Shown here in pieces: positions 1 to 26,987 of a stretch of 64,000 bases of DNA (the first letter of the stretch is position 1; each line of letters starts with the position of its first letter). Under the pieces are notes generated by a model. That model saw only the letters and a program-made list of their open reading frames with translations, made no database searches and had not been told where the DNA came from. The DNA lies in NCBI GenBank assembly GCA_021845505.1, contig JAJZVU010000015.1:1-64000 (forward strand), written 5' to 3'. The stretch is from Pseudomonadota bacterium. GTDB taxonomy: Bacteria; Pseudomonadota; Gammaproteobacteria; Burkholderiales; Burkholderiaceae_C. The position numbers were made by a program, and so were the translations under genes.

Positions 1-92
1 AGGAAGCGGTCCAGCCCGAGCAGGCGCGTGACCACGCCCAGCACCACCAGCACCGCCAGGTTGGTGGCGAGGAACAGCACGATGCGTTTCAT
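1..92 (-). CDS. htpX: Protease HtpX homologue, N-terminus only
   Basis: Only the first 30 codons lie in the window; the gene runs off the left edge. The translation begins MKRIVLFLATNLAVLVVLG, a hydrophobic first membrane helix that closely matches the conserved start of HtpX. HtpX is an inner-membrane zinc metalloprotease that degrades misfolded membrane proteins in other bacteria. The HExxH zinc site would lie outside the window, so the call rests on this N-terminal signature. The 110 bp leader between this start and the upstream RtcB-like gene carries a possible heat-shock promoter and a small palindrome. Confidence 0.8.
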   Translation of the reverse strand, partial: MKRIVLFLATNLAVLVVLGVVTRLLGLDRF

Positions 93-154
93 CGTCGGTC
101 TCCGGTGAACGTACAACCAGCCACACAAGTTGCGTTTGGTAACTTGCAGTCGAA

Positions 155-181
155 AGTATAGGCGTGGGGGACGTTTTCAAG
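155..181 (-). promoter_or_regulatory. Candidate heat-shock-type promoter for htpX
   Basis: Read on the minus strand, CTTGAAA (181-175) exactly matches the sigma-32 -35 box. After 12 bases CCTATACT (162-155) serves as a partial -10 element. The start codon of htpX is about 60 bp downstream. htpX is a known heat-shock gene in E. coli, which fits. TATACT could also act as a sigma-70 -10, but the spacing to TTGAAA would be too short. Confidence 0.45.
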
Positions 182-202
182 GGGTCGGCGCGGCGCGCCG
201 GC

Positions 203-1417
203 TCATCCGCCCAGGTGCAGCCTGGGCAGCAGCCTGGCGACGCGGCGTGCCAGTCCGGCCGCTTCCGCGCCCAGCGCGATGGCGTCGAGCTGGCGGCCGC
301 TCGCCGCCGCGCCGGCCACCCCCAGCGAGGCCAGTGCGTGATGCGAATTGCCGGGGCAGCCGGCCAGTACGTGGCCGGCCTCGCGGCCGACGAGCAGCAC
401 CGGATGGCCGAACGCCGCCATGTCCGCCGGCAGTTCGGGGTGTCCGGGAGCCAGCAGCCGGGCCGCAGCGCAACGGTGGACGAGCAGCCGTCGCAAGCGG
501 CCGTCGATCGCATGGACTTCCTCGCGACAACTGCTCGAAGCGCCGTCGTGCAGCAAGTCCAGCCGGCAGCCGGGGAACACGCGCTCGAACGCCTGCCGCG
601 CGGCGTGGGTCAGCAGCTGCCGGCGAGCCATCGCTCCATTGGCCACGGCTCGCAGCGCGCCCAGATAGCGCTGCCCGAGCACCGAGCCCGCCTCGACCCA
701 CACCAGTGCCGCTACCGGTGCCGGACGCGGCCCGCCGCGGGCACGCATCTGGCGCAGGTAGTCCAGGCTCACCTGGCGCGCCAGCCCGCGCGCACCGCCT
801 TGCACGCCCAGCACCAGTTCGCCGCGGCGCAGGCCGAAGCCACGTTCCGCGTCGTCGCCGAAGACCTGCTGCACCTCCAGCAGCTGCAGCGCGGCGTGGC
901 CGCTCCAGCCGTCGTCGAAGTCCCGCGCCAGCCGTCGCAACGCCAGCGCAGACACGGCGTGCGGCTCGGCGCCCGCCGCACGGCCGCCGTCCTCGATGCG
1001 CCGCAGGTCCGCGGCATCGCCCCAGCCCCGGCAGACGGCCCAGCGCGCTCCGCCCTCCAGAGCAGCCTGCAGGTCATGCGCGCCCAGTTCGACCTGCGCG
1101 AGGGCGCGTCGCAACTCGACGGCCAGGCGTTGGGCGCGCGCCGGCAGCGCGCTCGCAGCGAGGCCTGTGCGCAGCAACCGCGCGCCGAAGCCCGGGTCGA
1201 CGCCGACGCCTCCGGGCCAGGCCGCCGCCGCGCCGTCGAGGTCGAAGGCGGCGACGCGACCGATGGCCGGCGCGCCATCGCGTGCCACGCCGAGCAGTGC
1301 GTGGCTGATGCCGACGAGCCCCGGCAGGCAGGCCATCGCCTCGAGTCGCGCTCGCTCGCCCGCGGGCAGGCGCTGCACCGCGGCGCGCGTGCCGTACAGC
1401 CGCACCGGCACCTGCAT
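203..1417 (-). CDS. RtcB-like protein lacking catalytic residues
   Basis: A 404-residue protein with the overall RtcB RNA-ligase layout of the archease-associated group. Recognisable segments are [47 protein letters not shown]-like [14 protein letters not shown] and APGHPELP. The expected active-site residues are largely gone. The metal-binding Cys of the DxxCG motif is Phe77 and the NH pair before LEVQ is Leu177-Gln178. The His of HTGSRG is Gln206, and the GMP-accepting His falls near Val367; only His271 is kept. The reading frame is long and intact, so it looks like a pseudoenzyme rather than a decaying gene. The start was chosen for its match to the family N-terminus (MQVPVRLYG); an in-frame ATG at 1480 is an alternative. 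It lies downstream of an equally altered archease-like gene. Confidence 0.7.
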
Positions 1418-1616
1418 CGCGCCATGCCTGGGCAGTTCCCACACGGTGGCTCGGGATGGTGGTGGGCTGGACGATGGCATGGCGCTCGCGAAGGCAGATC
1501 CGCAGGTCGCCAAGTCCGCACGTTCGCACGTTCGGGAGGCCTCCGGGCGCGGCCATTTTCGTCGTGCCGGCCCGGGTTCGACCATGCGCGAGGTCAAGCC
1601 GGCGGACGCGTCGCGG

Positions 1617-2072
1617 TCACTCGCCGAAACGGCATTGCGCCATCCAGCGCCCATCGTCCAGCCGACGCACCCTTGCCTGGCGCGCCCCGTCGGGCAGGTC
1701 GCGCCGGCGCGGCGCGCTGTGGGCGTCGAGCGCCTCGCCCCAGGCGGTGGCACGCAGCCGGCAGGTGTCGACCGCGACCGCGAAGCGGGCAAACCCCATG
1801 CCCCGGACCGTGGCTTCGCGGGCAAGGCGCTCGAGCCATTCGAGCAACAGTTGTTCGGGGCCGGCCGCGTCGAACTGGAGGTGCAGCGGCTGCAGCGCGC
1901 GCAGACCGACCCCGTCGCCCAGCAGCGAACCGACCCCCGCGGCGGCTTGCGCGAAGGCGCCGTCGAGCGTCGGCGCGTAGGCCTGCAGCAGCGTGTGGTG
2001 CGCCTCGCGCAGGATCTCCCAGTTGCCGGGTTCGAGCGTCAACGCCGCGTCATTGCAGGCCATCGGGGTCAT
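1617..2072 (-). CDS. Archease-like protein lacking metal ligands
   Basis: A 151-residue protein with the archease pattern: [12 protein letters not shown] helix, LLLEWLERL helix, a strand with LRATAWGE and a closing DGRWMAQ strand. Archease is the small metal-dependent activator of RtcB guanylylation. The diagnostic HTAD motif is replaced by residues around EAHHT, so the Asp ligand is absent. The usual terminal Asp (VIFDV-like) is replaced by CRFGE, and the KAxTYH segment is not present. The gene is followed after about 200 bp by the RtcB-like gene on the same strand, which supports the identification. The ATG at 2072 was preferred on length; another in-frame ATG is at 2063. No strong ribosome-binding site is seen. 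Confidence 0.62.
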
Positions 2073-2243
2073 GCGCAAGGAACGAGTGGGAAAGGACCGT
2101 TTCGGCGGGGCGCCCATGCTAGCCGCAGGCGCCTGCCCAGCCCTCAAGCCCTTATGCGCGATGGAGGTATTCGGCGCCGGCGTGCCGCGGGCGCGGGAGC
2201 ACAATGGCTTGCGCTACCCCACTCAGCTACAGGAGGCTTGCCG

Positions 2244-3065
2244 ATGCTCAGCGCAGACGATCTGTGGAAGGACGTGATGGAATTGCGCGCCCGCTGTCCA
2301 CTGGTGCACAACGTGACCAACCTGGTGGTGATGAACTTCAACGCCAATCTGCTGCTGGCAGCCGGAGCCTCGCCGGTGATGGTGCATGCCCATGATGAAG
2401 TCGAGGAAATGGCGGGGATGGCCGGCGCGCTGGTGCTCAACATCGGGACCCTGCAGCCGGAATGGGTCGAGTCGATGCGCCTGGCCCTGCTGGCCGCGCG
2501 TGCCCGCGCGACCCCCGTGGTGCTCGATCCCGTGGGCGTCGGCGCCACCGCCTACCGCCGGCGGGTCGTGGCGGCGTTGCGCGCGGCCGGCGAACCCGAC
2601 GTGTTGCGCGGCAACGCGTCGGAAATCGTCAGCGTCGCGGGAGACGCGGCCGGCGCGCGCGGCGTCGACAGCCTGCTGCAGGCCGACGCCGCGCTCGATG
2701 CGGCGCGACGCCTCAGCCGCGACAGCGGCGCGGTGGTCTGCGTGTCGGGTGAGCACGACCATGTGGTCGACGCGTCGGGCCGCCATGCCCGACTGGGCAA
2801 TGGCGATGTGTGGATGACCCGGGTCACCGGGGTCGGCTGCGGCGCCAGCGCGCTGGTCGCCGCGTTCGCCGCGGTGCAGCCCGACCGTTGGCGCGCCACG
2901 GTGGCGGCGATGGCCTACCTCGGCGTGGCCGGCGAGGTGGCGGCCGAGCGCACCCGTGCCGCCGGTGCCGGAATCGGCCGATACCAGGTCGAACTGCTCG
3001 ACGCCGTGCACCTGCTCGATGCCGGCACCTTCGGTGCGCGCCTGCGCATGGAGGTCGGCGCATGA
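2244..3065 (+). CDS. thiM: Hydroxyethylthiazole kinase
   Basis: Phosphorylates 4-methyl-5-(2-hydroxyethyl)thiazole to feed thiamine phosphate synthase in thiazole salvage, in the cytoplasm. The 273-residue protein matches ThiM throughout: [15 protein letters not shown] near the start, [25 protein letters not shown] and the anion-hole segment [15 protein letters not shown] with the conserved Cys. A perfect AGGAGG (2231-2236) sits seven bases before the ATG. thiE follows 28 bp downstream, a common salvage pair. No TPP riboswitch core is visible in the 171 bp between the archease-like gene and this start. Confidence 0.95.
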
Positions 3066-3093
3066 GCGCGGCGCGCAGCGCCGGGGCGCGACG

Positions 3094-3741
3094 ATGAACC
3101 GCGTCGCCCTCGGCGCCCTGAGGCTGTACCTGGTGGTCGGCGGGCTCGACGAGCCGCGGCTGCTGCATCTGGTGCGCGAGGCGTTGCGTGGCGGAATCAC
3201 CTGCCTGCAACTGCGGGAGAAGTCGATTTCCACCCGTGCATTCGTCGCGCGTGCCAGGCTGCTGCGCGATGTCCTGCATGGGCACCGGGTACCGCTGATC
3301 ATCAATGATCGCCTCGACGTCGCGCTGGCCAGCGCCGCCGACGGCGTGCACCTGGGGCAGGACGACCTCGGGGTGGACGTGGTGCGCCGGTACATGCCGC
3401 GGGCGATCGTCGGCCTGTCGGTCGGCTCGCTGCCGGAGCTCGACGCCGGTGTCGCGCAGGATGTCGACTATCTCAGCCCCAGCCCGCTGTTCGCCACCCG
3501 CAGCAAGCCCGATGCCGGGCATCCACTGGGGCTCGAGGGCTTGCGCGCCATGCGCGCGCGCTGCAGCTCGCCTCTGGTGGCCATCGGGGGCATCGACCGC
3601 GGCAATGCCGGGTCGGTGTTCGCGGCCGGGGCCGACGGCATCGCGGTGGTCTCGGCCATCGCCGGGGCCGCCGATCCGGCTGCCGCCAGCGCGGAGCTGG
3701 CAGCCGTGGCCCGCAGCGCGCGCGCCGGCCGGCCGACTTGA
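3094..3741 (+). CDS. thiE: Thiamine-phosphate synthase
   Basis: Joins the pyrimidine diphosphate and thiazole phosphate to give thiamine phosphate. The 215-residue TIM-barrel protein has the family motifs CLQLREK, LIINDRLDVAL, DGVHLGQDD, VGLSVGS, DYLSPSPLF, VAIGGI and GADGIAVVSAI. The start codon overlaps the stop of an 11-codon open frame that itself begins within the thiM stop (ATGA at 3062), so translation may be coupled. The TGA stop overlaps an FNR-like palindrome belonging to the next operon. Confidence 0.95.
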   Translation: MNRVALGALRLYLVVGGLDEPRLLHLVREALRGGITCLQLREKSISTRAFVARARLLRDVLHGHRVPLIINDRLDVALASAADGVHLGQDDLGVDVVRRYMPRAIVGLSVGSLPELDAGVAQDVDYLSPSPLFATRSKPDAGHPLGLEGLRAMRARCSSPLVAIGGIDRGNAGSVFAAGADGIAVVSAIAGAADPAAASAELAAVARSARAGRPT

Positions 3742-3751
3742 TCGTTGTCAG
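3738..3751 (+). promoter_or_regulatory. FNR-type box upstream of ubiU
   Basis: TTGATCGTTGTCAG fits the FNR/ANR consensus TTGAT-N4-ATCAA: the left half-site is perfect and the right half keeps TCA. A possible -10, TAGAGT (3792-3797), would place the box near -60, close to the class I position. ubiUV is FNR-activated in E. coli, and an FNR-type regulator is encoded just downstream, so the site makes biological sense. Confidence 0.55.
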
Positions 3752-3870
3752 CCATCGCAGCCGTGGTCGCCTGGCCGGCGCGCCGGCGCGCTAGAGTCCT
3801 GCAGCTTGGGTAGCCAGCCGCGCGCAGCCGATCGCGTCGGCTGCCCAGGCCAACCAGGGGAGTACGCTCG

Positions 3871-4893
3871 ATGGAGCAGCAAAGCAGGCGCCGCAAGCCC
3901 GAGCTGGTGTGTCCGGCCGGATCGCTGCGGGCGCTGCAGCTGGCGGTGGATTCCGGCGCCGACGCCGTCTACCTGGGGCTGCGCAACCAGACCAACGCGC
4001 GCGCCTTCGCCGGCATGAACTTCGACCAGGCGCAGATCCGCGAGGGCGTGCGCTACGCCCACGACCGCGGCGCCAAGGTCCTGATGGCCTTGAACACCTT
4101 CGCCGCGGCCGAGGATCCCCAACCCTGGTTCGACGCGGTCGAGCAGGCGGCGGGACTCGGCGCCGATGCGCTGATCGTCGCCGACAGCGCGGTTCTGGAC
4201 TACGCCCACAGGCACCATCCGCAACTGCGGCTGCACCTGTCGGTGCAGGCGTCGGCCACCTCCTACGAGGCGCTCGAGTACTACCGCCAGCGCTACGGGA
4301 TCCAGCGCGCGGTGCTGCCGCGGGTGCTGACCTTGTCGCAGGTGGCCCATCTGGCGCGCAACACCCTCGCCGAAGTCGAGGTCTTCGGTTTCGGCAGCCT
4401 GTGCGTGATGGTGGAGGGGCGCTGCGCGCTGTCGTCCTATGCCACCGGCAGTTCGCCCAACAATGCGGGGGTTTGCTCGCCCGCGGCGGCCGTGCGCTGG
4501 ACCGAGCGCGAGGACGGCAGCGTCGACGCGCGCCTGGGCGGGGTGCTGATCGACAGCTACGCGCCGGGCGAGGCGCGGGCCTACCCGACCTTGTGCAAGG
4601 GGCGCTTTGTCGTCGACGGACGCCGCGGCTATGCGCTGGAGGAGCCGACCAGCCTGAATACCCTGGAGCTGCTGCCGGAGTTGATGGACCATGGCGTCGC
4701 CGCGGTGAAGATCGAGGGCCGGCAGCGCAGCGCGCAGTACGTCAGCGAGGTCACTCGGGTGTGGCGCGAGGCCATCGACGCCGCGGCCGCCGACCCCGGC
4801 TACAGGGTGCGCGATGCCTGGAGCGCGCGCCTGGCGCGCTGGGCCGAGGGCCAGCAGCACACCCTGGGCGCCTATGACCGGCCCTGGCGCTGA
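3871..4893 (+). CDS. ubiU: O2-independent ubiquinone hydroxylation protein UbiU
   Basis: A 340-residue U32-peptidase-family protein. With UbiV it carries out the ring hydroxylations of ubiquinone synthesis without O2, using prephenate as oxygen donor in E. coli. The four cluster-binding cysteines expected for a 4Fe-4S centre are seen in SLCVMVEGRCALSS, NAGVCSPAA and YPTLCKGRF. N-terminal ELVCPAGS and DAVYLGLRNQTNAR are typical of the family. ubiV begins 13 bp after the stop. A GC-rich hairpin (3824-3844, 8-bp stem) lies in the leader, and an FNR-like box lies 120 bp upstream. Confidence 0.93.
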   Translation: MEQQSRRRKPELVCPAGSLRALQLAVDSGADAVYLGLRNQTNARAFAGMNFDQAQIREGVRYAHDRGAKVLMALNTFAAAEDPQPWFDAVEQAAGLGADALIVADSAVLDYAHRHHPQLRLHLSVQASATSYEALEYYRQRYGIQRAVLPRVLTLSQVAHLARNTLAEVEVFGFGSLCVMVEGRCALSSYATGSSPNNAGVCSPAAAVRWTEREDGSVDARLGGVLIDSYAPGEARAYPTLCKGRFVVDGRRGYALEEPTSLNTLELLPELMDHGVAAVKIEGRQRSAQYVSEVTRVWREAIDAAAADPGYRVRDAWSARLARWAEGQQHTLGAYDRPWR

Positions 4894-17779: not shown

Positions 17780-18168
17780 CGGCGATGCCGGGCCGGGGGG
17801 GTCCGGTCGAGCGGGACCTGCCGGCCATCCACGCGGTGCTTCGGCATCGCGCGGACATGCCCTTCGTCGGCAACGCGGTGGCGCACGACGCCCGGCACTT
17901 CACCGGCGAGGTCGACCGGGCGCCGGCGCTGCCGGTGCCGCAGGGGCATGACCCGGGCCTGCCGGTGGTCCCGATGGTTCCGACGGTCCCGGGGGGAGGG
18001 CCAGCATGGCGCTGCTGAGGGTCAAGCCCCTGCGCGAGCAGTTGCTCGGTCGCGCCGGCTGAGCGCACGTCGTGCGCGACGGCGCAGCAGCGGGCGTGCG
18101 GACCCGGCGCGCCCCCCCGGCGGTTATGATGGAATAGTGATTTGCTTGCGCTTTTCGAGCCTTTTGCC
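17780..18168 (+). other. Gap inside the polyene cluster; weak ORF, promoter
   Basis: A frame from ATG 17784 to 18018 (78 residues, containing PAIHAVLRHRADMPFVGNA) is open but resembles nothing I recognise and becomes Pro/Val-rich at its end. It may be a remnant of a lost cluster gene or non-coding. Near the right end TATGAT (18125-18130) stands in a locally AT-richer patch and could be the -10 of the second carrier-protein operon. Confidence 0.3.
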
Positions 18169-18459
18169 ATGTCTCCTTCTTCCGCCACGAAGCCGCAGGT
18201 CGATCCGCAGTTCCTCCAGGAAATCGGGGAACTCATCGTCCAGGCACTGGAGCTGGACGTCGCGGCAGCGGATATCGACCCCGACGCGCAGCTGTACGGC
18301 GACGGCCTCGGCCTGGATTCGATCGACATCCTGGAAGTGGCCCTGGTCCTTTCCAGGAAGTACGCAGTGCAACTGCGCGCCGACGACGCCGACAACCAGC
18401 GCATCTTCAGCTCGCTGCGACATCTGGCCAGCCATGTCGCGGGGCTCCGGGCAAGGTGA
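18169..18459 (+). CDS. Acyl carrier protein 2 of the polyene cluster
   Basis: A 96-residue acyl carrier protein with the phosphopantetheine attachment site GLGLDSIDILEVAL. It heads the main block of overlapping biosynthetic genes. Aryl-polyene clusters regularly have two distinct carrier proteins, one often used for head-group loading. The ATG at 18169 was chosen over an upstream TTG. Its stop overlaps the GTG of the next gene. Confidence 0.88.
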   Translation: MSPSSATKPQVDPQFLQEIGELIVQALELDVAAADIDPDAQLYGDGLGLDSIDILEVALVLSRKYAVQLRADDADNQRIFSSLRHLASHVAGLRAR

Positions 18460-19106
18460 AACGACCCGGGATCCTGGCTGCGCTGCGCACGCTGCTGACC
18501 CTCGGCTGCGCGGCGTATCCGCTGGCTGCGTACTCGGCCGGCTACCGCGCCCACCCGCCCTGGCTGGCAGCGATGCTGAGCTGGGGCCCGCTGGTGCTGC
18601 TCGCCGCATGGCTGATCGGGCGCAGCCGCCTGCGCCTGTGGCTGGGCCTGGCCGCGGCGCTCGGACTTGCGCTGCTGTGGCGCGAGCGCGCGCTGGTGGC
18701 GCAGCACCTGGCGTGGGCCTACCTGGCCGAGCATGCCGGGAGCATGGGCCTGCTGGGTATCATGTTCGGCAGCACGCTGCGCGGCGGGCAGATTCCGCTG
18801 GTCACCCGATTCGCCGCGACCATCCGGCCTTCGATGTCGGACGCGCTGCTGCGCTACACCCGCGGGGTCACCGTCGCATGGACCCTGTTCTTCGTCGCGA
18901 TGGCAGCCGCCTCGCTGCTGTTGTTCGCGCTGCGCCCGCTGGCTGAGTGGGCCCTGTTCGCCGGCGCCTGGACCCCGGCACTGGTGTCCCTGATGTTCGT
19001 CGTCGAGTACGCGCTGCGGCACGCACTGCTCGGTCCGGCCGATCGGTCGGGGCCCTGCGAGGCGCTGCGTGCCTACATGCTCTATACCGCGGAGCGCAGG
19101 CGATGA
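18456..19106 (+). CDS. Membrane protein, ApeG/COG4648-like
   Basis: A 216-residue protein with several hydrophobic helices (LLTLGCAAYPLAAY, WGPLVLLAAWLIG, TLFFVAMAAASLLLFAL) and GIMFGSTLRGGQIPLVTRFA, RYTRGVTVAWTLFF. This combination matches the small membrane protein found next to the carrier proteins in aryl-polyene and flexirubin clusters; its biochemical role is unknown. The GTG start overlaps the carrier-protein stop. A nine-codon frame beginning in its stop (ATGA) leads to the ligase start. Confidence 0.75.
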   Translation: MKRPGILAALRTLLTLGCAAYPLAAYSAGYRAHPPWLAAMLSWGPLVLLAAWLIGRSRLRLWLGLAAALGLALLWRERALVAQHLAWAYLAEHAGSMGLLGIMFGSTLRGGQIPLVTRFAATIRPSMSDALLRYTRGVTVAWTLFFVAMAAASLLLFALRPLAEWALFAGAWTPALVSLMFVVEYALRHALLGPADRSGPCEALRAYMLYTAERRR

Positions 19107-19128
19107 CAGCGGCGACAGGGGGTCCGCG

Positions 19129-20487
19129 ATGACGCGGGCGCTGCCTTTGCTGGCCGGCAACGACCCGGACGCGATTTTCGCGTGGCGGCGGGGCATCCCG
19201 GTACGTGCCGCCGAATTCCTGGCCGACGTCGAGCGGCTGGCGCGCGCGATGCCCGCGGGAGGGCATGTGCTCAATGCCTGCCAGGACCGCTACCACGTCG
19301 CGGTGGGCTTTGCCGCCGCGCTGGTGGGCGACAAGATCAACCTGCTGCCGTCGACCCGCAATCCCGATACCGTGCGCCACCTGCGCGCCTGCGCGCCCGA
19401 CCTGTTCTGCCTGGTCGACGGCCCCTGCGACCTGCCGCTGCCGCAGATGCGCTACCCGGAAGCGCTCGCGGCCGCGGGCCGCGCGGCGAGCGCCATGCCG
19501 GAGATCGACGAGGACCGCGTGGTCGCCAGGGTCTACACCTCCGGCTCGACCGGAGCGCCGCTTCCCCACGACAAGACCTGGGGGGCGCTGGTCGCCTGCA
19601 TTCGTTCGGGCCGCGACCGGCTGGCGCTGCCCGCGCGCACCACCCTGGTCGGCACGGTTCCGGCGCAGCACATGTACGGCTTCGAGTCGACGCTGCTGAT
19701 GGCCTTCCACGGCGATCTCGCCCTCGGCTCGGCGCATCCGTTCTATCCGGCCGACATCGTCGACGAGCTGGCGCGGGTGCCGGCGCCGCGCATGCTGGTG
19801 TCCACCCCGGTCCACTTGCGCGCGCTGCTCGCCTCCGGGCTGGACATCCCGCCGCTGCGGATGGTGCTGTGCGCGACGGCGCCGCTGGCGGTCGAGCTGG
19901 CGCACGAAGTCGAGGCCAGGACCCGCGCGCCGCTGGTGGAAATCTACGGATCGACCGAAACCGGCCAGATCGCGACCCGGCGCACCGCGCGCACCGACGC
20001 GTTCACGCTGCTCGACGGCCTGGCCCTGGTGCCGACCGCGGACGGGGTGGCGATGGCCAGCGGCGGCCATCTCGCGCGGCCGACGCCGATCCACGACATC
20101 ATCGAACCGCTGGGCGGTGGCGACTTCCGGCTCCACGGGCGCAGCGCCGACATGGTCAACATGGCGGGCAAGCGCAGTTCGCTGGCCCATCTCAATCACC
20201 AGCTGTGCAGCGTCCCCGGGGTGCTCGACGGGGCCTTCTTCGCCCCGGACCCGACCGCGCGCGACGGCGTGGCTCGCTTGATGGCCTTCGCGGTGGCTCC
20301 GGGACTCACCGTGCAGGCGCTGCGCGCCGCGCTGCGCGAACGCATCGACGCCGCCTTCATGCCGCGTCCGCTGGTGCTGCTCGCGGACATGCCGCGCAAC
20401 GCCACCGGCAAGCTGCCGCGAGCCGCGCTGGCCGCGCTGGCAGTCGAGCACGGCGAGATTGCCCAGGCCGAGGACGATGACTGCTGA
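19129..20487 (+). CDS. AMP-dependent acyl-ACP ligase, ApeH-like
   Basis: A 452-residue ANL-family ligase. It has the P-loop YTSGSTGAPLPHDKTW, the EIYGSTETGQIATR motif, the hinge region HGRSADMVNMAGKRSS and catalytic Lys in RNATGKLPR. It is shorter than classical acyl-CoA ligases, as in ApeH-type enzymes that adenylate an aryl or acyl starter and load it on a carrier protein. It sits between the COG4648-like protein and a dehydratase, the canonical aryl-polyene order. The starter is likely a hydroxybenzoate-type acid, but no head-group enzyme is in the window. Confidence 0.85.
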   Translation: MTRALPLLAGNDPDAIFAWRRGIPVRAAEFLADVERLARAMPAGGHVLNACQDRYHVAVGFAAALVGDKINLLPSTRNPDTVRHLRACAPDLFCLVDGPCDLPLPQMRYPEALAAAGRAASAMPEIDEDRVVARVYTSGSTGAPLPHDKTWGALVACIRSGRDRLALPARTTLVGTVPAQHMYGFESTLLMAFHGDLALGSAHPFYPADIVDELARVPAPRMLVSTPVHLRALLASGLDIPPLRMVLCATAPLAVELAHEVEARTRAPLVEIYGSTETGQIATRRTARTDAFTLLDGLALVPTADGVAMASGGHLARPTPIHDIIEPLGGGDFRLHGRSADMVNMAGKRSSLAHLNHQLCSVPGVLDGAFFAPDPTARDGVARLMAFAVAPGLTVQALRAALRERIDAAFMPRPLVLLADMPRNATGKLPRAALAALAVEHGEIAQAEDDDC

Positions 20488-20791
20488 AACCCTGCATCCC
20501 GGCTATCCCCCCGGACATCCGGCGTTCGACGGCCACTTCCCGGGCAACCCGCTGGTGCCGGGGGTGCTGCTGCTCGATGCCGTGGTGCATGCGTCGTGCG
20601 AGCCCGAGGCGCTCGCCCGCGGCGGGGTGTGCATCGACCAGGTCAAGTTCACCGCGGTGGTGCGACCTGGGCAGTCGCTGGTCATCGACTGCCCGTCGCC
20701 GCTCGCCGCAGGCGGGCGCTTCCGCGTGCTCCAGGGGGCGCGCGTGGTGGCTGGTGGATCGCTTTCGCCCATCCGCGAAGCGCAACGCTAG
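20477..20791 (+). CDS. Hotdog dehydratase, ApeI-like
   Basis: A 104-residue single-hotdog protein containing HPAFDGHFPGNPLVPGVLLLD, the FabZ/FabA-type signature with its catalytic His. It would dehydrate 3-hydroxyacyl-carrier intermediates to give conjugated double bonds. The ATG lies 11 bp inside the ligase gene. A second, different hotdog enzyme is encoded at 27805-28281, as in Ape clusters, where ApeI and ApeP act together. Confidence 0.82.
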   Translation: MTAETLHPGYPPGHPAFDGHFPGNPLVPGVLLLDAVVHASCEPEALARGGVCIDQVKFTAVVRPGQSLVIDCPSPLAAGGRFRVLQGARVVAGGSLSPIREAQR

Positions 20792-20793
20792 CG

Positions 20794-21786
20794 ATGGCGA
20801 GCGGGCCCGAAACTCCTGCGCCGGCCTGCCCGGCCGAGCGCCGAGCCGACTCGCCGGCGGGCGAGTCGCGCCGGGCCTCGTGGGCGCGTGACCGCGAACG
20901 CAGCAATGCGACGATGCTGCGGGTGATGACCTGGATTTCGCTGCGCCTGGGGCGCGGCCCGGCGCGCCTGGTGCTGCTGGGCATCTGCGCCTACTTCCTC
21001 GCCTGCGCGCCCAGGGCGCGCAGGGCCTCTGCCGACTACCTCGGCCGGGTCCTGGGACGCCGACCCGCGTGGCGCGAAAGGTTCGCGCATATCCATGCCT
21101 TCGCGTCGACCGTCCACGACCGCGTGTTCCTGCTCAACGATCGCGCCGAACTGTTCGATCTTTCCAGCCGTGGCGTCGAGCACATCGAGGCCGCGCTGGC
21201 GCGCGGCCGCGGAGCGTTGCTGCTGGGCGCCCACTTCGGCAGCTTCGAGGTGCTGCGTGCCGCGGGGCGGCTGCGCGGAGGCCTGGCGATGTCCCTGCTG
21301 ATGTACCCGGACAACGCGCGCAAGATCAACTCGGCGCTGCATGCCATCAACCCGGCTGCCCAGCAGGACATCATCGCGCTGGGCCATGCGGACTCGATGC
21401 TGCGCGTGGGCAACGCGCTCGATGCCGGGGGGGTCGTGGGCATCCTTGCCGACCGCTCGCTGCACGAACAGGCGGTGGCGCGGCTGCCGTTCCTGGGTGC
21501 CGACGCGCAGTGGCCGCTGGGGCCGTTGCGCATCGCCGCGCTGATGCAGCGTCCGGTGCTGTTCATGGCCGGCATCTATCGGGGAGGCAACCGCTACGAG
21601 GTGGTGTTCGAGCCGCTCGCCGATTTTTCCGGACTCGGTCGCGCGGCGCGCTCAGCGGCCGTCGATGAGGCGTTGCGCCTCTATGTGCAAAGGCTCGAGC
21701 AGCACTGTCGCGACGCCCCGTTCAACTGGTTCAATTTCTTCGACTTCTGGGGCGCGCCGGGCGCCGCGGCGGCGAGGTCGCACTGA
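20794..21786 (+). CDS. LpxL-like lysophospholipid acyltransferase
   Basis: A 330-residue protein of the LpxL/HtrB family. A 45-residue polar extension precedes the usual start region TWISLRLGRGPARLVLLG; the catalytic H-x4-E is in GAHFGSFEVLR, with GILADRS and NWFNFFDFW further on. In aryl-polyene pathways such an enzyme attaches the finished acyl chain to a lipid or glycolipid acceptor at the inner membrane. The extension could reflect a start that is too far upstream: an in-frame ATG lies just before LRVMTW. Confidence 0.82.
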   Translation: MASGPETPAPACPAERRADSPAGESRRASWARDRERSNATMLRVMTWISLRLGRGPARLVLLGICAYFLACAPRARRASADYLGRVLGRRPAWRERFAHIHAFASTVHDRVFLLNDRAELFDLSSRGVEHIEAALARGRGALLLGAHFGSFEVLRAAGRLRGGLAMSLLMYPDNARKINSALHAINPAAQQDIIALGHADSMLRVGNALDAGGVVGILADRSLHEQAVARLPFLGADAQWPLGPLRIAALMQRPVLFMAGIYRGGNRYEVVFEPLADFSGLGRAARSAAVDEALRLYVQRLEQHCRDAPFNWFNFFDFWGAPGAAAARSH

Positions 21787-21797
21787 GGGGCCGTCCG

Positions 21798-22424
21798 ATG
21801 CATCGACCCGCGACCCGCCGCACGCCGGCACGCGGCTCGCGCAGGCGGGCGCTGGCGCGCCTGGCCTGCGCCGCGCTGGCCGGCCTGGGCGTGGGCGCGC
21901 CGGCGCAGGCCGCGGCGTGGGACCTTGCCGTGTTGATGCGGCTGCTGGCAGCGCGCGGATCGGGCGAGGCGAGCTTCGACCAGACGAAGACCCTGGCCAT
22001 GCTCGACGCGCCCATCGAGTCCTCGGGCACCCTGCGCTACGCGCCCCCCGACTACCTGGAAATGCGCACCCTGAAGCCCAGGCCCGAGAAGGTCGTCGTG
22101 CAGGGCGCCCGCATCACCGTGGAAGTCGACGGCCATTCGCGGCGCTTCGATCTCGACCAGGCGCCCGCGGTCGGCGCGCTGGTCGGCGGAATCCGCGCCA
22201 CCCTCGGCGGCGACCTGGGCGCGCTGCAGCGCGCGTATCGAGTCAGCCTGGGCGGCGACGAGGCGCTGTGGACCCTGGCGCTGGTTCCGCGACTGCCGGC
22301 GGCGCGGGAGCGGGTCAGCGAAATCGACATCAGCGGCTCGGGAGCCTGGCTGCGCAGCATCGCGATCTTCGAGGCCGACGGCGACCACTCGCTGATGCGG
22401 CTTCACCGGCTGCGGCAGCGATGA
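21798..22424 (+). CDS. LolA-like outer-membrane carrier, ApeL-like
   Basis: A 208-residue secreted protein. An Arg-rich start and a hydrophobic stretch ending APAQAAA form a signal peptide. The mature part follows the LolA pattern: ASFDQTKTLAMLDAPIESSGTLRYAPPDYLEMRT, then VVVQGARITVEVDG. LolA-type proteins carry lipidated cargo through the periplasm; in polyene clusters they are thought to carry the pigment lipid to the outer membrane. The stop overlaps the MMPL exporter start (ATGATG). Confidence 0.85.
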   Translation: MHRPATRRTPARGSRRRALARLACAALAGLGVGAPAQAAAWDLAVLMRLLAARGSGEASFDQTKTLAMLDAPIESSGTLRYAPPDYLEMRTLKPRPEKVVVQGARITVEVDGHSRRFDLDQAPAVGALVGGIRATLGGDLGALQRAYRVSLGGDEALWTLALVPRLPAARERVSEIDISGSGAWLRSIAIFEADGDHSLMRLHRLRQR

Positions 22425-24799
22425 TGCGACGCCGCCACGCGATCGTCCTGCTGTGGCTGGCGCTGCTGGCCGGCGCGCTCGCCGTGGTCGCGCATTCGCG
22501 CTTCTCGGCCGACATGTCGGCTTTCCTGCCCCGCGCGCCGGATGCGCAGCAGCGGGTGCTCGTCGACCAGCTGCGCACCGGCCTGGTGTCGCGCATCCTG
22601 ATGGTCGGGATCGACGGCGCGACGCCCGGCGTGCGTGCCGACATCTCGACGCGACTGGCGCGGCGGTTGCGCGCGACCGCGGAGTTCGCAGCGGTGGACA
22701 ACGGCCAGGCCAGCCGCACCGCCCGCGACTTTGCGCTGGTCTACTCCCACCGCTACCTGCTCAGCCCGTCGACCACCCCGCAGGCCTTCACCGCGGCCGG
22801 TCTGCACCGCGCGATCGCCGACGCCATCGCGCAATTGGCCGCGCCGATGGGCGACCAGTTCAAGCACCTGCTGCCGGCCGATCCGACCGGAGCGACCCTG
22901 GGGTTTCTCGAGGCCATCGCGCCGCGCACCCAGCCGCGGCGGATCGACGGCGTCTGGGCCTCCCCCGACGGCTCGCGCGCGCTGCTGTTCCTGGTCACGC
23001 GCGCCCCGGGCACCGATACCGATGCGCAGCAGCGCGCGCTGCGTCGGCTGCGGGCGGATTTCGACGCCGCCCGCAGCGCGCTCGGTCCGCGCGCCGCCGG
23101 CGTCTCGCTGGTGGTCAGCGGACCGGCGGTGTTCGCGGTGCACTCGCGCAGTGCCATCGAGCATGCGGTGACGCGGGTCACCGTGCTCGGCGCGAGCCTG
23201 ATCGTCGCGCTGCTGCTGCTGGTCTACCGCTCGCTGCCGTTGCTGGTGCTCGGTTTGCTGCCGGTCCTCACCGGGGTGGCCGTCGCCACAGCCGCGGTGG
23301 GCCTGGGCTTCGGGCTGGTGCAGGGAATCACCCTGGGCTTCGGCACGACCCTGATGGGCGAGGCGGTCGACTATTCCATCTACCTGTTCGTGCAGTCGGG
23401 CGGCCACGACGGCGGCGGGCGCAGCGCCTGGGTGCGGGACTTCTGGCCCACGGTGCGACTGGGGATGCTCACCTCGGTGGTCGGTTTCGCCAGCCTGCTG
23501 CTGTCGGACTTTCCCGGGCTGGCGCAGATCGGCGCCTACTCCATCGTCGGGCTGCTCACCGCGGCGCTGGTGACCCGCTTCGTGCTGCCCGAGTTGCTGC
23601 CCCGGTCGCTGGTGGTGCGCGACCTGAGCGTTGCCGGCGAGCGGCTGCTGCGGGTGGTGCGCGCCGTGCGCCGCTTGCGCTGGCCGCTGGCGCTGCTGGT
23701 GCTGGCCTCGCTGGCGCTGCTGCTGGTCCAGCGGCAGCATGTCTGGAACCCGCGGCTGGCGGCCCTCAGCCCGATGCCCCGCAGCATGCTCCAGACCGAT
23801 GCGACCTTGCGCCGCCAGATCGGCGCGCCCGACTCGGGCGACCTGGTGGTGCTGGTCGGAGCGACCCAGGAAGCGGCGCTGCAGGCCGCCGAGGCCATCG
23901 CCCCACGGCTGCGCGCGTTGCAGCGCGAGGGGCTGATCGGCGGTTTCGACAGCCCGGCGCGCTACCTGCCGAGCGCGCGCACCCAGCGGGCACGCCAGCG
24001 CGCGCTGCCGAGCGCCGGGCAGCTCGAGGCCAACCTGCGCGCCGCGGTGGCCGGTCTGCCGGTGGCGCCCGGTCTGTTCAAGCCCTTTGTCGCAGCGGTC
24101 ACCGCCGAGCGCCAGGCTGCGCTGCTGACACGCTCGGACTTCGCCGGCAGCTCGTTCGCGCTGGCGCTGGACGGCATGCTGGTGCAAGGCCGCCACGGCC
24201 GCTGGATGGCCCTGCTGCCGCTGCGCGCGCCGGCCCATCGCGAGATCTCCGTGGCACGCCTGCGGGTGGCGCTGCGCGGCAGCGGCGGCCGGGTGGTCGA
24301 CCTCGGCGCGACGAGCGACGACCTGTACCGCGGCTACCTGGGCTCGGCGATCTGGTTGTCCGCCGGCGGTGTCGTGGGCATGGCGGTGCTGCTGCTGGCC
24401 GCCTTGCGCTCGCCCACCCGGGTGGCGCGGGTGCTGGCGCCGCTGCTCGCGGCCGTGGTGGTCGTCGCGGCGGGTCTGGTGGTGCTGGGGCAGCGTCTGA
24501 CCTTGCTGCACCTGGTGGGCATGATGCTGGTCATCGCGGTGGGGTCGAACTACGCGTTGTTCTTTGCCGGCGGCAGGCGGCACGGCGGGATCGCGCCGCA
24601 GACCGTGGCGTCGCTGGTGTTCGCGAACCTGACCACGGTCGCAGGTTTCGCGCCCCTGCTCATCGCCGGTGTGCCGGTGCTGACCGCGCTCGGGGCCACG
24701 GTGGGGCCGGGAGCGCTGCTGGCGCTGGTGTTCTCGGCCGTGCTGTCGGCGCCCGCCGACGCGCCGGCAGGCGCTGCGCTGGACGGAGCCACCCGATGA
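22421..24799 (+). CDS. MMPL/RND-family lipid exporter, ApeM-like
   Basis: A 792-residue inner-membrane transporter with twelve expected membrane segments arranged as two halves. Each half has a large periplasmic loop and a six-helix bundle (for example LIVALLLLVYRSLPLLVLGLLP and VVGMAVLLLAALRSP). Conserved GFGTTLMGEAVDYSIYLF and AVGSNYALFF are the MMPL helix-4 signatures, with Asp in the first half. It likely flips or exports the polyene lipid. It overlaps genes on both sides. Confidence 0.9.
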   Translation: MMRRRHAIVLLWLALLAGALAVVAHSRFSADMSAFLPRAPDAQQRVLVDQLRTGLVSRILMVGIDGATPGVRADISTRLARRLRATAEFAAVDNGQASRTARDFALVYSHRYLLSPSTTPQAFTAAGLHRAIADAIAQLAAPMGDQFKHLLPADPTGATLGFLEAIAPRTQPRRIDGVWASPDGSRALLFLVTRAPGTDTDAQQRALRRLRADFDAARSALGPRAAGVSLVVSGPAVFAVHSRSAIEHAVTRVTVLGASLIVALLLLVYRSLPLLVLGLLPVLTGVAVATAAVGLGFGLVQGITLGFGTTLMGEAVDYSIYLFVQSGGHDGGGRSAWVRDFWPTVRLGMLTSVVGFASLLLSDFPGLAQIGAYSIVGLLTAALVTRFVLPELLPRSLVVRDLSVAGERLLRVVRAVRRLRWPLALLVLASLALLLVQRQHVWNPRLAALSPMPRSMLQTDATLRRQIGAPDSGDLVVLVGATQEAALQAAEAIAPRLRALQREGLIGGFDSPARYLPSARTQRARQRALPSAGQLEANLRAAVAGLPVAPGLFKPFVAAVTAERQAALLTRSDFAGSSFALALDGMLVQGRHGRWMALLPLRAPAHREISVARLRVALRGSGGRVVDLGATSDDLYRGYLGSAIWLSAGGVVGMAVLLLAALRSPTRVARVLAPLLAAVVVVAAGLVVLGQRLTLLHLVGMMLVIAVGSNYALFFAGGRRHGGIAPQTVASLVFANLTTVAGFAPLLIAGVPVLTALGATVGPGALLALVFSAVLSAPADAPAGAALDGATR

Positions 24800-25638
24800 G
24801 CGCCGCTCCCGAGCCGCCGCGGCAGACGACTCGCGCCCTCGGCCAGCTGCCGCCGAGCGTGCTGGGCGTGGGTGCGGTGAACCTGATCGCGTTGGCCGCC
24901 GTGGTTGCCGCGCCGGGCAGCTGGCCGTGGGCGCTGGGCGCTGCGCTGCTCGGCCATGCCTGGATCGGTGCGCTGACCCTGAGCCCGCGCACGCACCGGC
25001 TCGGCCCCAACCTGGTGCGCCTGGCGCCGGAGCATGTGGCGCGCGGCCTGGTGGCGATCACCATCGACGATGGCCCCGATCCGCGCACCACCCCGGCGGT
25101 GCTGGAGATCCTGGATGCCCACGCTGCCACCGCCAGTTTCTTTTGCATCGGCGAGCGGGTCGCACGCCACCCCGAGCTGGCGCGCGAGATCGTCCGCCGC
25201 GGCCACCGGGTGGAAAACCATACGGCGCGACACCGACACGATTTCGCGCTGCTCGGCCCGCGCAGGTACCTCGCCGAACTGGCCGCGGGGCAGGCGCTGA
25301 TCGAGGCGGCCACCGGCGTCGCGCCGTGCTATTTCCGCGCGCCTGCCGGATTCCGCAATCCCTTCTGCTGGCCGGCTCTGCAGCGCGCCGGGCTCGTGCT
25401 CGCATCGTGGACGCGACGCGGCTTCGACACCCGGGACGGCGACGCGGCGCGGGTGCTGCGGCGGCTCGCCGACGGCCTGGCGGCCGGCGACATCCTGCTG
25501 CTGCACGACGGCCACTGCGCCCGCACGCCGGCCGGCGTCCCGGTGATCCTGGAAGTCCTTCCGCAGTTGCTCGCGCTGCTGCAGCGGCGCGGCTTGCGGG
25601 CCGTGGCACTGCCCCGGCCTCCCGGGAGCCTTCGATGA
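24796..25638 (+). CDS. Polysaccharide deacetylase (NodB domain)
   Basis: A 280-residue protein with one or two N-terminal hydrophobic segments and a complete NodB catalytic domain. It shows TIDDGPDPRTTP (two Asp), HRVENHTARH (two metal His), RAPAGFRNP and LLLHDGH. These enzymes remove N-acetyl or related groups from sugars. It overlaps the MMPL stop (ATGA), so it is translated with the polyene export genes and may trim a glycan or glycolipid acceptor. Such a gene is not part of the minimal aryl-polyene set. Confidence 0.87.
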   Translation: MSAAPEPPRQTTRALGQLPPSVLGVGAVNLIALAAVVAAPGSWPWALGAALLGHAWIGALTLSPRTHRLGPNLVRLAPEHVARGLVAITIDDGPDPRTTPAVLEILDAHAATASFFCIGERVARHPELAREIVRRGHRVENHTARHRHDFALLGPRRYLAELAAGQALIEAATGVAPCYFRAPAGFRNPFCWPALQRAGLVLASWTRRGFDTRDGDAARVLRRLADGLAAGDILLLHDGHCARTPAGVPVILEVLPQLLALLQRRGLRAVALPRPPGSLR

Positions 25639-25736
25639 AGCGTTGCGCCGGCGATGCGGCCCGCGTTGCGTGGCACTTCGCGCCGCAGGCGATCGAGCCG
25701 CCGCGGCCCGCCCCGGCCGCGGCTTCGCTACAGTAA
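25635..25736 (+). CDS. Short coupled ORF, doubtful
   Basis: A 33-codon frame begins in the deacetylase stop (ATGA) and ends ten bases before the next ketosynthase. The product has no recognisable domain. The position is where aryl-polyene clusters often carry a small lipoprotein gene (ApeN), but no lipobox is present. It may just couple translation across the gap. Confidence 0.2.
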   Translation: MKRCAGDAARVAWHFAPQAIEPPRPAPAAASLQ

Positions 25737-25745
25737 CTGGGCATC

Positions 25746-26987
25746 ATGGCTTCGAATCGTCCTCGTCTTGCGCCGCTGCATGTCGTGCGCGCCACCGCGA
25801 CCAGCTGCCTGGGCAGCGGCCTGGCCGCGCACGCCGCGGCGCTTCGCGACAACCGTTGCGGGCTGGCGCGCTGCGAGTTCGATGTCTGCGACCTGCCGAC
25901 CTGGATCGGCGAGGTGCGGGGTGTCGACTCCGTCGGCCTGCCCGCGGCGCTGGCCGTCTTCGATTGCCGCAACAACCGGCTGGCCGAACTCGCGCTGGCG
26001 CAGGACGGCTTCCTGCAGGCCGTCGAGCACGCGGTGGCCCGCCACGGCGCGCATCGCGTCGGGCTGTTCGTCGGCACCAGCACCTCGGGCATGCTGGAGA
26101 CCGAGCAGGCGTACCGGCGGCGCGACGCACGCGGCGCGTTGCCTGGGGATTTCAACTATTGCGCCACGCACAGCACGGCGTCGCTCGCCGCGTTCCTGGG
26201 CGAGCGCCTGGGGCTGCGCGGGCCGGCCTGCGTGATTTCGTCGGCCTGCTCGTCCAGCGCCAAGGTGTTCGCGACCGCGCAGCGCATGATCGGCGCCGGG
26301 CTGGTCGACTGCGCGGTGGTCGGCGGAGTCGACACGCTGTGCCTGACCACCCTGTACGGCTTTCATTCCCTCGAACTGCTGTCGCCCAGTCCCTGCCGAC
26401 CCTACGACGTCGCGCGCAACGGGCTTTCGCTGGGGGAGGCGGCAGCCTTCGCCGTGCTCGAGGCCGCGCCGCGGCACCTGGCCGACGACGAGGTGCTGCT
26501 GCTGGGCAGCGGCGAATCCAGCGATGCCCACCACATGTCGTCGCCCCACCCCGAAGGCCTCGGCGCGCGAATGGCGATGCAGCAGGCGCTGGCCGAATGC
26601 GCTCTGCAGCCGTCGGACATCGACTACATCAATCTGCATGGAACCGCCACGCCCAGCAACGACGCTGCCGAAGGGCACGCCGTGGCAGCGCTGTTCGGTC
26701 GCGGCACCTCGTGCAATTCGACCAAGGGCGGGACCGGCCATACGCTGGGCGCTGCCGGCGGCCTGGAGGCGGTGTTCTGCCTGCTGGCGCTGCGCGACGG
26801 CTTCCTGCCGGGCAGCCCCGGCACGCAGGTCCTCGACCCGGCCATCGCCGGGCCGCAGCAACTGCGCTACCGTTGCGCGGCCGAGCCGGCCCGGCCGGGT
26901 TTCGCGATGAGCAATTCCTTCGGCTTCGGCGGCACGAATTGCAGCCTGGTGCTGGGCCGCGCCGATGCGTGGAGGGCGCGTCGATGA
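25746..26987 (+). CDS. Beta-ketoacyl-ACP synthase, ApeO-like
   Basis: A 413-residue ketosynthase with Cys168 in SSACSSSAKVF, His298 in NLHGTAT and His332 in GGTGHTLGAAG, plus NSFGFGGTN near the end. It is probably the main chain-extending synthase and is followed by an overlapping chain-length-factor-like partner, as in Ape and type II polyketide systems. The order KS, CLF, dehydratase, ketoreductase is the elongation module of aryl-polyene clusters. Confidence 0.9.
   Translation: MASNRPRLAPLHVVRATATSCLGSGLAAHAAALRDNRCGLARCEFDVCDLPTWIGEVRGVDSVGLPAALAVFDCRNNRLAELALAQDGFLQAVEHAVARHGAHRVGLFVGTSTSGMLETEQAYRRRDARGALPGDFNYCATHSTASLAAFLGERLGLRGPACVISSACSSSAKVFATAQRMIGAGLVDCAVVGGVDTLCLTTLYGFHSLELLSPSPCRPYDVARNGLSLGEAAAFAVLEAAPRHLADDEVLLLGSGESSDAHHMSSPHPEGLGARMAMQQALAECALQPSDIDYINLHGTATPSNDAAEGHAVAALFGRGTSCNSTKGGTGHTLGAAGGLEAVFCLLALRDGFLPGSPGTQVLDPAIAGPQQLRYRCAAEPARPGFAMSNSFGFGGTNCSLVLGRADAWRARR

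Follow-up and report, generated by a model that had tools for sequence, protein, structure and literature searches.

Two adjacent genes near the left end of the window (the whole stretch of 64,000 nucleotides that was analysed) encode members of the RtcB and archease families that have lost 7 of 8 and 5 of 5 key residues, respectively, with both reading frames left open. Judged by profile scores, the family assignment of both proteins is far beyond chance, and there is strong reason to infer from their residues that the pair is unable to ligate RNA. We regard it as somewhat probable, on the strength of the sequences, that the two form a pseudoenzyme pair whose ligation chemistry has been lost and which purifying selection maintains in some other role, perhaps the binding of RNA. 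A pseudoenzyme pair is a descriptive class and not a curated family; kept homology, lost catalytic residues and purifying selection were all found here, with one ortholog only.

The genes and their surroundings are compiled in Table 1. Both frames are intact and adjacent, as the first-pass annotation had it, and they are intact also in the ortholog (genome G024). On the minus strand the order is archease-like gene, RtcB-like gene, htpX, with the archease-like gene upstream on the same strand. The RtcB-like protein matches PF01139 over the domain (E 2.3e-40, 139.5 bits against a Pfam cut-off of 27), and its best relative in the PDB is the RtcB of P. horikoshii (1uc2, E 8.7e-56). The archease-like protein matches PF01951 over the domain (E 6.7e-11, 43.1 bits against a Pfam cut-off of 25), with archease 4n2p as its best PDB relative (E 4.5e-7), and a profile comparison with hhalign of the two archease-like proteins against 13 archeases gave a probability of 99.4. 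The opposite strand of the pair holds an open frame of 652 aa (164-2122); the minus strand was chosen over it because of the homology. The home genome (G000) yielded one PF01139 match and one archease match, which are the window pair itself; no other RtcB or archease matched there, nor did RtcA. No sigma-70-like promoter or terminator-like match was found in window positions 1-2400, the lack of a promoter match being counted against the preferred reading, and no Rfam match in positions 1-4000.

Table 1. Features at the locus of the RtcB-like/archease-like pair (window coordinates)
Feature	Position	Strand	Remarks	Evidence
htpX start (M48 protease gene)	1-92	-	cut by contig end; whole gene in G024 contig L130	PF01435 E 1.1e-35 there
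RtcB-like protein gene	206-1480	-	425 aa; stop codon 203-205	PF01139, 1uc2 matches
archease-like protein gene	1620-2072	-	151 aa; stop codon 1617-1619	PF01951, hhalign
thiM (hydroxyethylthiazole kinase) gene	2244-3065	+	right flank	PF02110 E 2e-72
stretch present in window and G024, absent in G012	165-2205		rough bounds	thiM side rests on weak match, E 0.18

Residues of the RtcB-like protein are numbered here as in P. horikoshii RtcB, in which we take the further ligands to be Cys98, His234 and His329; eight residues with a part in metal binding, nucleotide binding or His-GMP formation were scored. In the P. horikoshii enzyme, Asp95 and His203 are assigned to Mn, Asn202 to the triphosphate, and Asp65 and His404 to the His-GMP bond (PMC3973293); in human RTCB, metal is bound by Asp119, Cys122, His227, His259 and His353, and GMP is taken up by His428 (PMC10944509). 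All eight key residues were present in each of the 75 rows of ordinary RtcB compared (one G049 gene appears twice, as L007 and L011, so that at most 74 are distinct); the RtcB-like protein keeps one of the eight, Asp95, and so does its ortholog. The metal Cys, the three metal His and the guanylylated His that mark an RtcB are all gone: the Cys98 position holds F in the window and R in the ortholog, the His positions read 203 to A, 234 to Q and 329 to S, and the segment that held His404 is deleted. The position of Asn202 is occupied by H in the window (His195, which adjoins the lost His203) and by Q in the ortholog; further losses are Asp65 to G, Glu206 to Q, Tyr/Phe204 to A and Lys480 to G. 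The first-pass annotation was therefore right on the Cys and the guanylylated His and too sparing on the metal histidines, of which it had counted two of three as lost. Ligands at shifted positions were looked for in the alignment, and no shifted replacement was evident; the neighbouring His380 and His381, kept in the ortholog and lying shortly before the deleted His404 segment, are conceivable as new ligands. Among the 192 RtcB positions conserved to at least 97% in the 75 ordinary rows, the RtcB-like protein keeps 90, substitutes 82 and deletes 20. In our reading of this split by role, the kept positions look like the fold core, and the lost ones include the active site.

For archease, two reports describe Asp12, Asp141, the last residue, His9 and Lys117 as required (PMC3973293, PMC10944509). 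In ordinary archeases these five positions are present in 66 to 69 of 69 rows, an archease row being available for 69 of the 75 RtcB rows; the archease-like protein keeps none of the five, in window and ortholog alike. The two Asp, the Lys, the His and the C-terminal metal-binding end that mark an archease are replaced (Asp12 to H, Asp141 to G, Lys117 to L, His9 to E/Q, and the last-residue position to E/A), so that the absence of the Asp ligands reported earlier was borne out and extends to His9, Lys117 and the C-terminal ligand position. Of 23 highly conserved archease positions, 10 are kept, 12 substituted and one deleted. In the human complex the archease tip reaches into the RtcB active site in an acid-on-basic fit (PMC10944509). 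Both proteins have changed at these contact surfaces, so that any interaction which persists must have taken another form. With the altered charges the acid-on-basic fit is weaker, and this favours either a changed contact or no contact at all.

The net charge of the RtcB-like protein is +14 in the window and +10 in the ortholog; in the 75 ordinary rows the median is -1 and values span -11 to +10. The shift is modest, as the ortholog comes out level with the top ordinary row; it would suit RNA binding and could come from GC pressure. The archease-like protein has a net charge of -2 in the window and +1 in the ortholog, compared with -8 as the median of 69 rows (range -13 to +18). Neither the RtcB-like protein (425 aa) nor the archease-like protein (151 aa) contains a single lysine, and their orthologs lack it as well; in five neighbouring proteins the lysine count is between 1 and 4 each. 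Perhaps this absence reflects GC pressure on weakly held residues. The predicted model of the RtcB-like protein is of low confidence (pLDDT 58, pTM 0.62). At E ≤ 0.001 it has 16 PDB matches, every one an RtcB (TM-score 0.50-0.66, rmsd 9-11 Å), which is no independent proof of the fold because the input alignment contained RtcB proteins. Among its poorly modelled stretches are 56-85, 315-346 and 365-410, where the alignment places portions of the former active site, and the model of the archease-like protein (pLDDT 51) is too weak for use.

A search for homologues with the same losses, recommended in the first-pass annotation, returned a single orthologous pair, from the same genus, at the same locus and with the same losses (88% identity for the RtcB-like and 89% for the archease-like protein). 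It lies on contig JAKBBQ010000110.1 (MAG ZJ4.bin41), an independent assembly that is colinear with the window over 8.2 kb. Among 28 genus genomes, 7 of which fall outside 90% completeness and 5% contamination, the degenerate pair occurs in 2, ordinary RtcB in 1 (G012) and no match in 25. With the RtcB-like protein as query, matches were obtained in 6 of 60 relatives, 3 of 28 genus, 12 of 399 family, 75 of 399 order, 82 of 369 class and 13 of 398 phylum genomes, and with the two-row alignment as query in 29 of 239 relatives; these genome sets overlap and include the home genome. Besides the two carriers, no match exceeded 46% identity (reached by a 116-aa fragment) in the searches from relatives to phylum, full-length matches there staying at or below 44%, and the scores of the two-row search of the 239 relatives show the same gap between the pair and the remaining matches. 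The residue-by-residue reading covered at most 30 matches per search, so that losses among some 45 weaker order matches and 50 weaker class matches could be missed, and the residue counts comprise RtcB frames of at least 150 bits to the window protein, which leaves aside, among others, G338 and the weak matches L027-L029. In G338 (L026/L030) the N-terminal half of RtcB is out of frame with the later parts, beside an archease with an ordinary C-terminus; this is either a broken gene or an assembly error. A contig scan for exact 8-residue matches, which would miss relatives near 50% identity, retrieved only the G024 contig under a public name. Plasmids, phages and viral contigs yielded no close relative, and no viral archease was found; 66 distant viral RtcB loci served only for alignment depth.

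The pair sits between htpX and thiM, the latter running the opposite way. The close relative G012 has htpX directly beside thiM, with about 185 bases between them and no remnant of the pair; its flanks match those of the window at 84% over 102 bases on the htpX side and at 76% over 72 bases at the thiM gene start, and weakly in the stretch before thiM. This empty site makes an insertion of the pair into the htpX-thiM interval most likely. The site is seen empty in this one genome, since seven more genus genomes show thiM without htpX in the stretch fetched. The thiM match is split in three in G007:C53:61182-62302 (L114, L118, L121) and in two pieces each in G009 and G002, likely through frameshifts or assembly errors. 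G012 carries an ordinary pair elsewhere, in the order polX-archease-rtcB (L210, 13101-15982), and a polX match was obtained, at a loose cut-off, within the short loci of 13 of the 75 ordinary pairs. Among 17 genus genomes searched, polX was found in G024 and G012 and not in the home genome; in G024 (L209) a related polX with a neighbouring 468-aa gene is present, with no archease-rtcB after polX. The window pair may or may not have descended from the polX-archease-rtcB stretch of G012. In a FastTree phylogeny the branch leading to the pair is 2.1-3.0 substitutions per site long, and its point of attachment lacks good support. Farther along the window, positions 18142-26987 hold acyl carrier protein and ketoacyl synthase genes, which suggest a fatty-acid-like biosynthetic cluster, perhaps of the aryl polyene type.

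With genes so stripped of catalytic residues, simple decay has to be considered, in which functionless remnants would have kept open frames through GC-richness and small divergence; the near-total loss of active-site residues and the very small number of carriers would fit this, as would dN/dS values above those of five neighbouring genes (0.02-0.27, the ubiT stretch having been taken slightly too long). The losses are, however, common to both genomes, which places the divergence of window and G024 after them, and yet dN/dS over that divergence is 0.37 for the RtcB-like gene (bootstrap 0.26-0.53) and 0.31 for the archease-like gene (0.14-0.62), not near 1, the value that the first-pass annotation had named as speaking against its proposal. 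In a neutral simulation, in which the same kinds of substitution were placed randomly with base-change types kept and codon preference not modelled, mean dN/dS was 1.05 and 1.24, respectively, and none of 2000 trials for either gene came out as low as observed. Stop codons arose in 1488 of the 2000 trials for the RtcB-like gene and in 693 for the archease-like gene; the real genes have none, and neither the broken frames nor the dN/dS near 1 of pseudogenes were found, the frames being unbroken in both genomes. Moreover, three intergenic stretches diverge by 11.8-20.4%, against 8.9% and 8.6% for the genes. Since dN/dS lies below all neutral trials and the frames are intact, plain decay is improbable. 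This evidence of selection comes from one pairwise comparison of two carrier genomes. As one antisense frame is equally low (0.39 and 0.33), dN/dS alone does not fix the strand, which homology does.

What the pair would be retained for is a separate matter. Between the orthologs, 14 of the 82 lost RtcB positions differ, against 5 of the 90 kept ones (P 0.026); because lost positions change more than kept ones, the proteins seem to be retained, but not for the former active site. It is a doubtful yet serious alternative that the role has nothing to do with RNA (a structural or regulatory one, for example) and that no contact between the two proteins is required. Of the known contact and catalytic residues only Asp95 is left, what has been retained is something other than the former active site, and the archease-like protein has given up its strong acidity, all of which would agree with such a role, but adjacency together with low dN/dS in both genes is simplest if the proteins work together. 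A changed enzyme with a new active site, built for instance on the C-terminal His/Cys residues 337, 359, 370, 375, 380 and 381, is very improbable: these residues are identical in both orthologs, but at 88% identity that much conservation is to be expected, they fall in a weak part of the model, and no substrate is known.

The preferred reading of a pseudoenzyme pair would then run as follows. An archease-rtcB gene pair would have been inserted between htpX and thiM; along a long ancestral branch the RtcB-like protein would have lost the guanylylated His together with its ability to bind metal and GTP, and the archease-like protein its metal-holding tip, and purifying selection would thereafter have retained the pair for another task. 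Family and net charge hint that the RtcB-like protein might bind RNA (broken ends, say, or a structured RNA) but not join it; the archease-like protein, for its part, might be a remodelled partner or assembly helper. The fuller version, a jointly repurposed, non-ligating two-protein machine that would hold or shield RNA (broken tRNA or rRNA ends, for example) through a remodelled contact, with binding or regulation replacing chemistry, is a tentative possibility. Against the preferred reading count the two carriers only, the lower dN/dS of the neighbours, a dN/dS of 1.4 over codons 1-60 of the RtcB-like gene, the lost interface surfaces and the weak models. Of the joint exit from RNA ligation that had been proposed at the outset, the joint loss of active-site and activator residues, the intact frames, the adjacency and the purifying selection in one orthologous pair stood.

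Compared with the RtcB-archease operon of P. horikoshii and the ordinary pair of G012, the window pair has the same two families in adjacent genes on the same strand, archease upstream of rtcB, but its identity to ordinary members is only about 40% (RtcB) and 30% (archease), and, unlike the G012 pair, it lies at a different locus without a polX neighbour. Two reports describe ligation, capping or repair roles for the RtcB1-RtcB3 paralogs of Myxococcus xanthus and for RtcB2-PrfH and RtcAB of E. coli (PMC10630183, PMC9223846). Like these, the RtcB-like protein would be a bacterial family member with a specialised role; unlike them, it lacks the residues for the chemistry, and its genome gave no RtcA match. 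The statement that no paired non-catalytic RtcB/archease had been described held among the literature matches listed (open papers), and no open paper was found that links RtcB with a pseudoenzyme. If both proteins have lost their chemistry and yet stay selected, RtcB and archease would be able to function apart from ligation, and nature would have supplied in this pair a test case for the use of the RtcB fold in the absence of catalysis.
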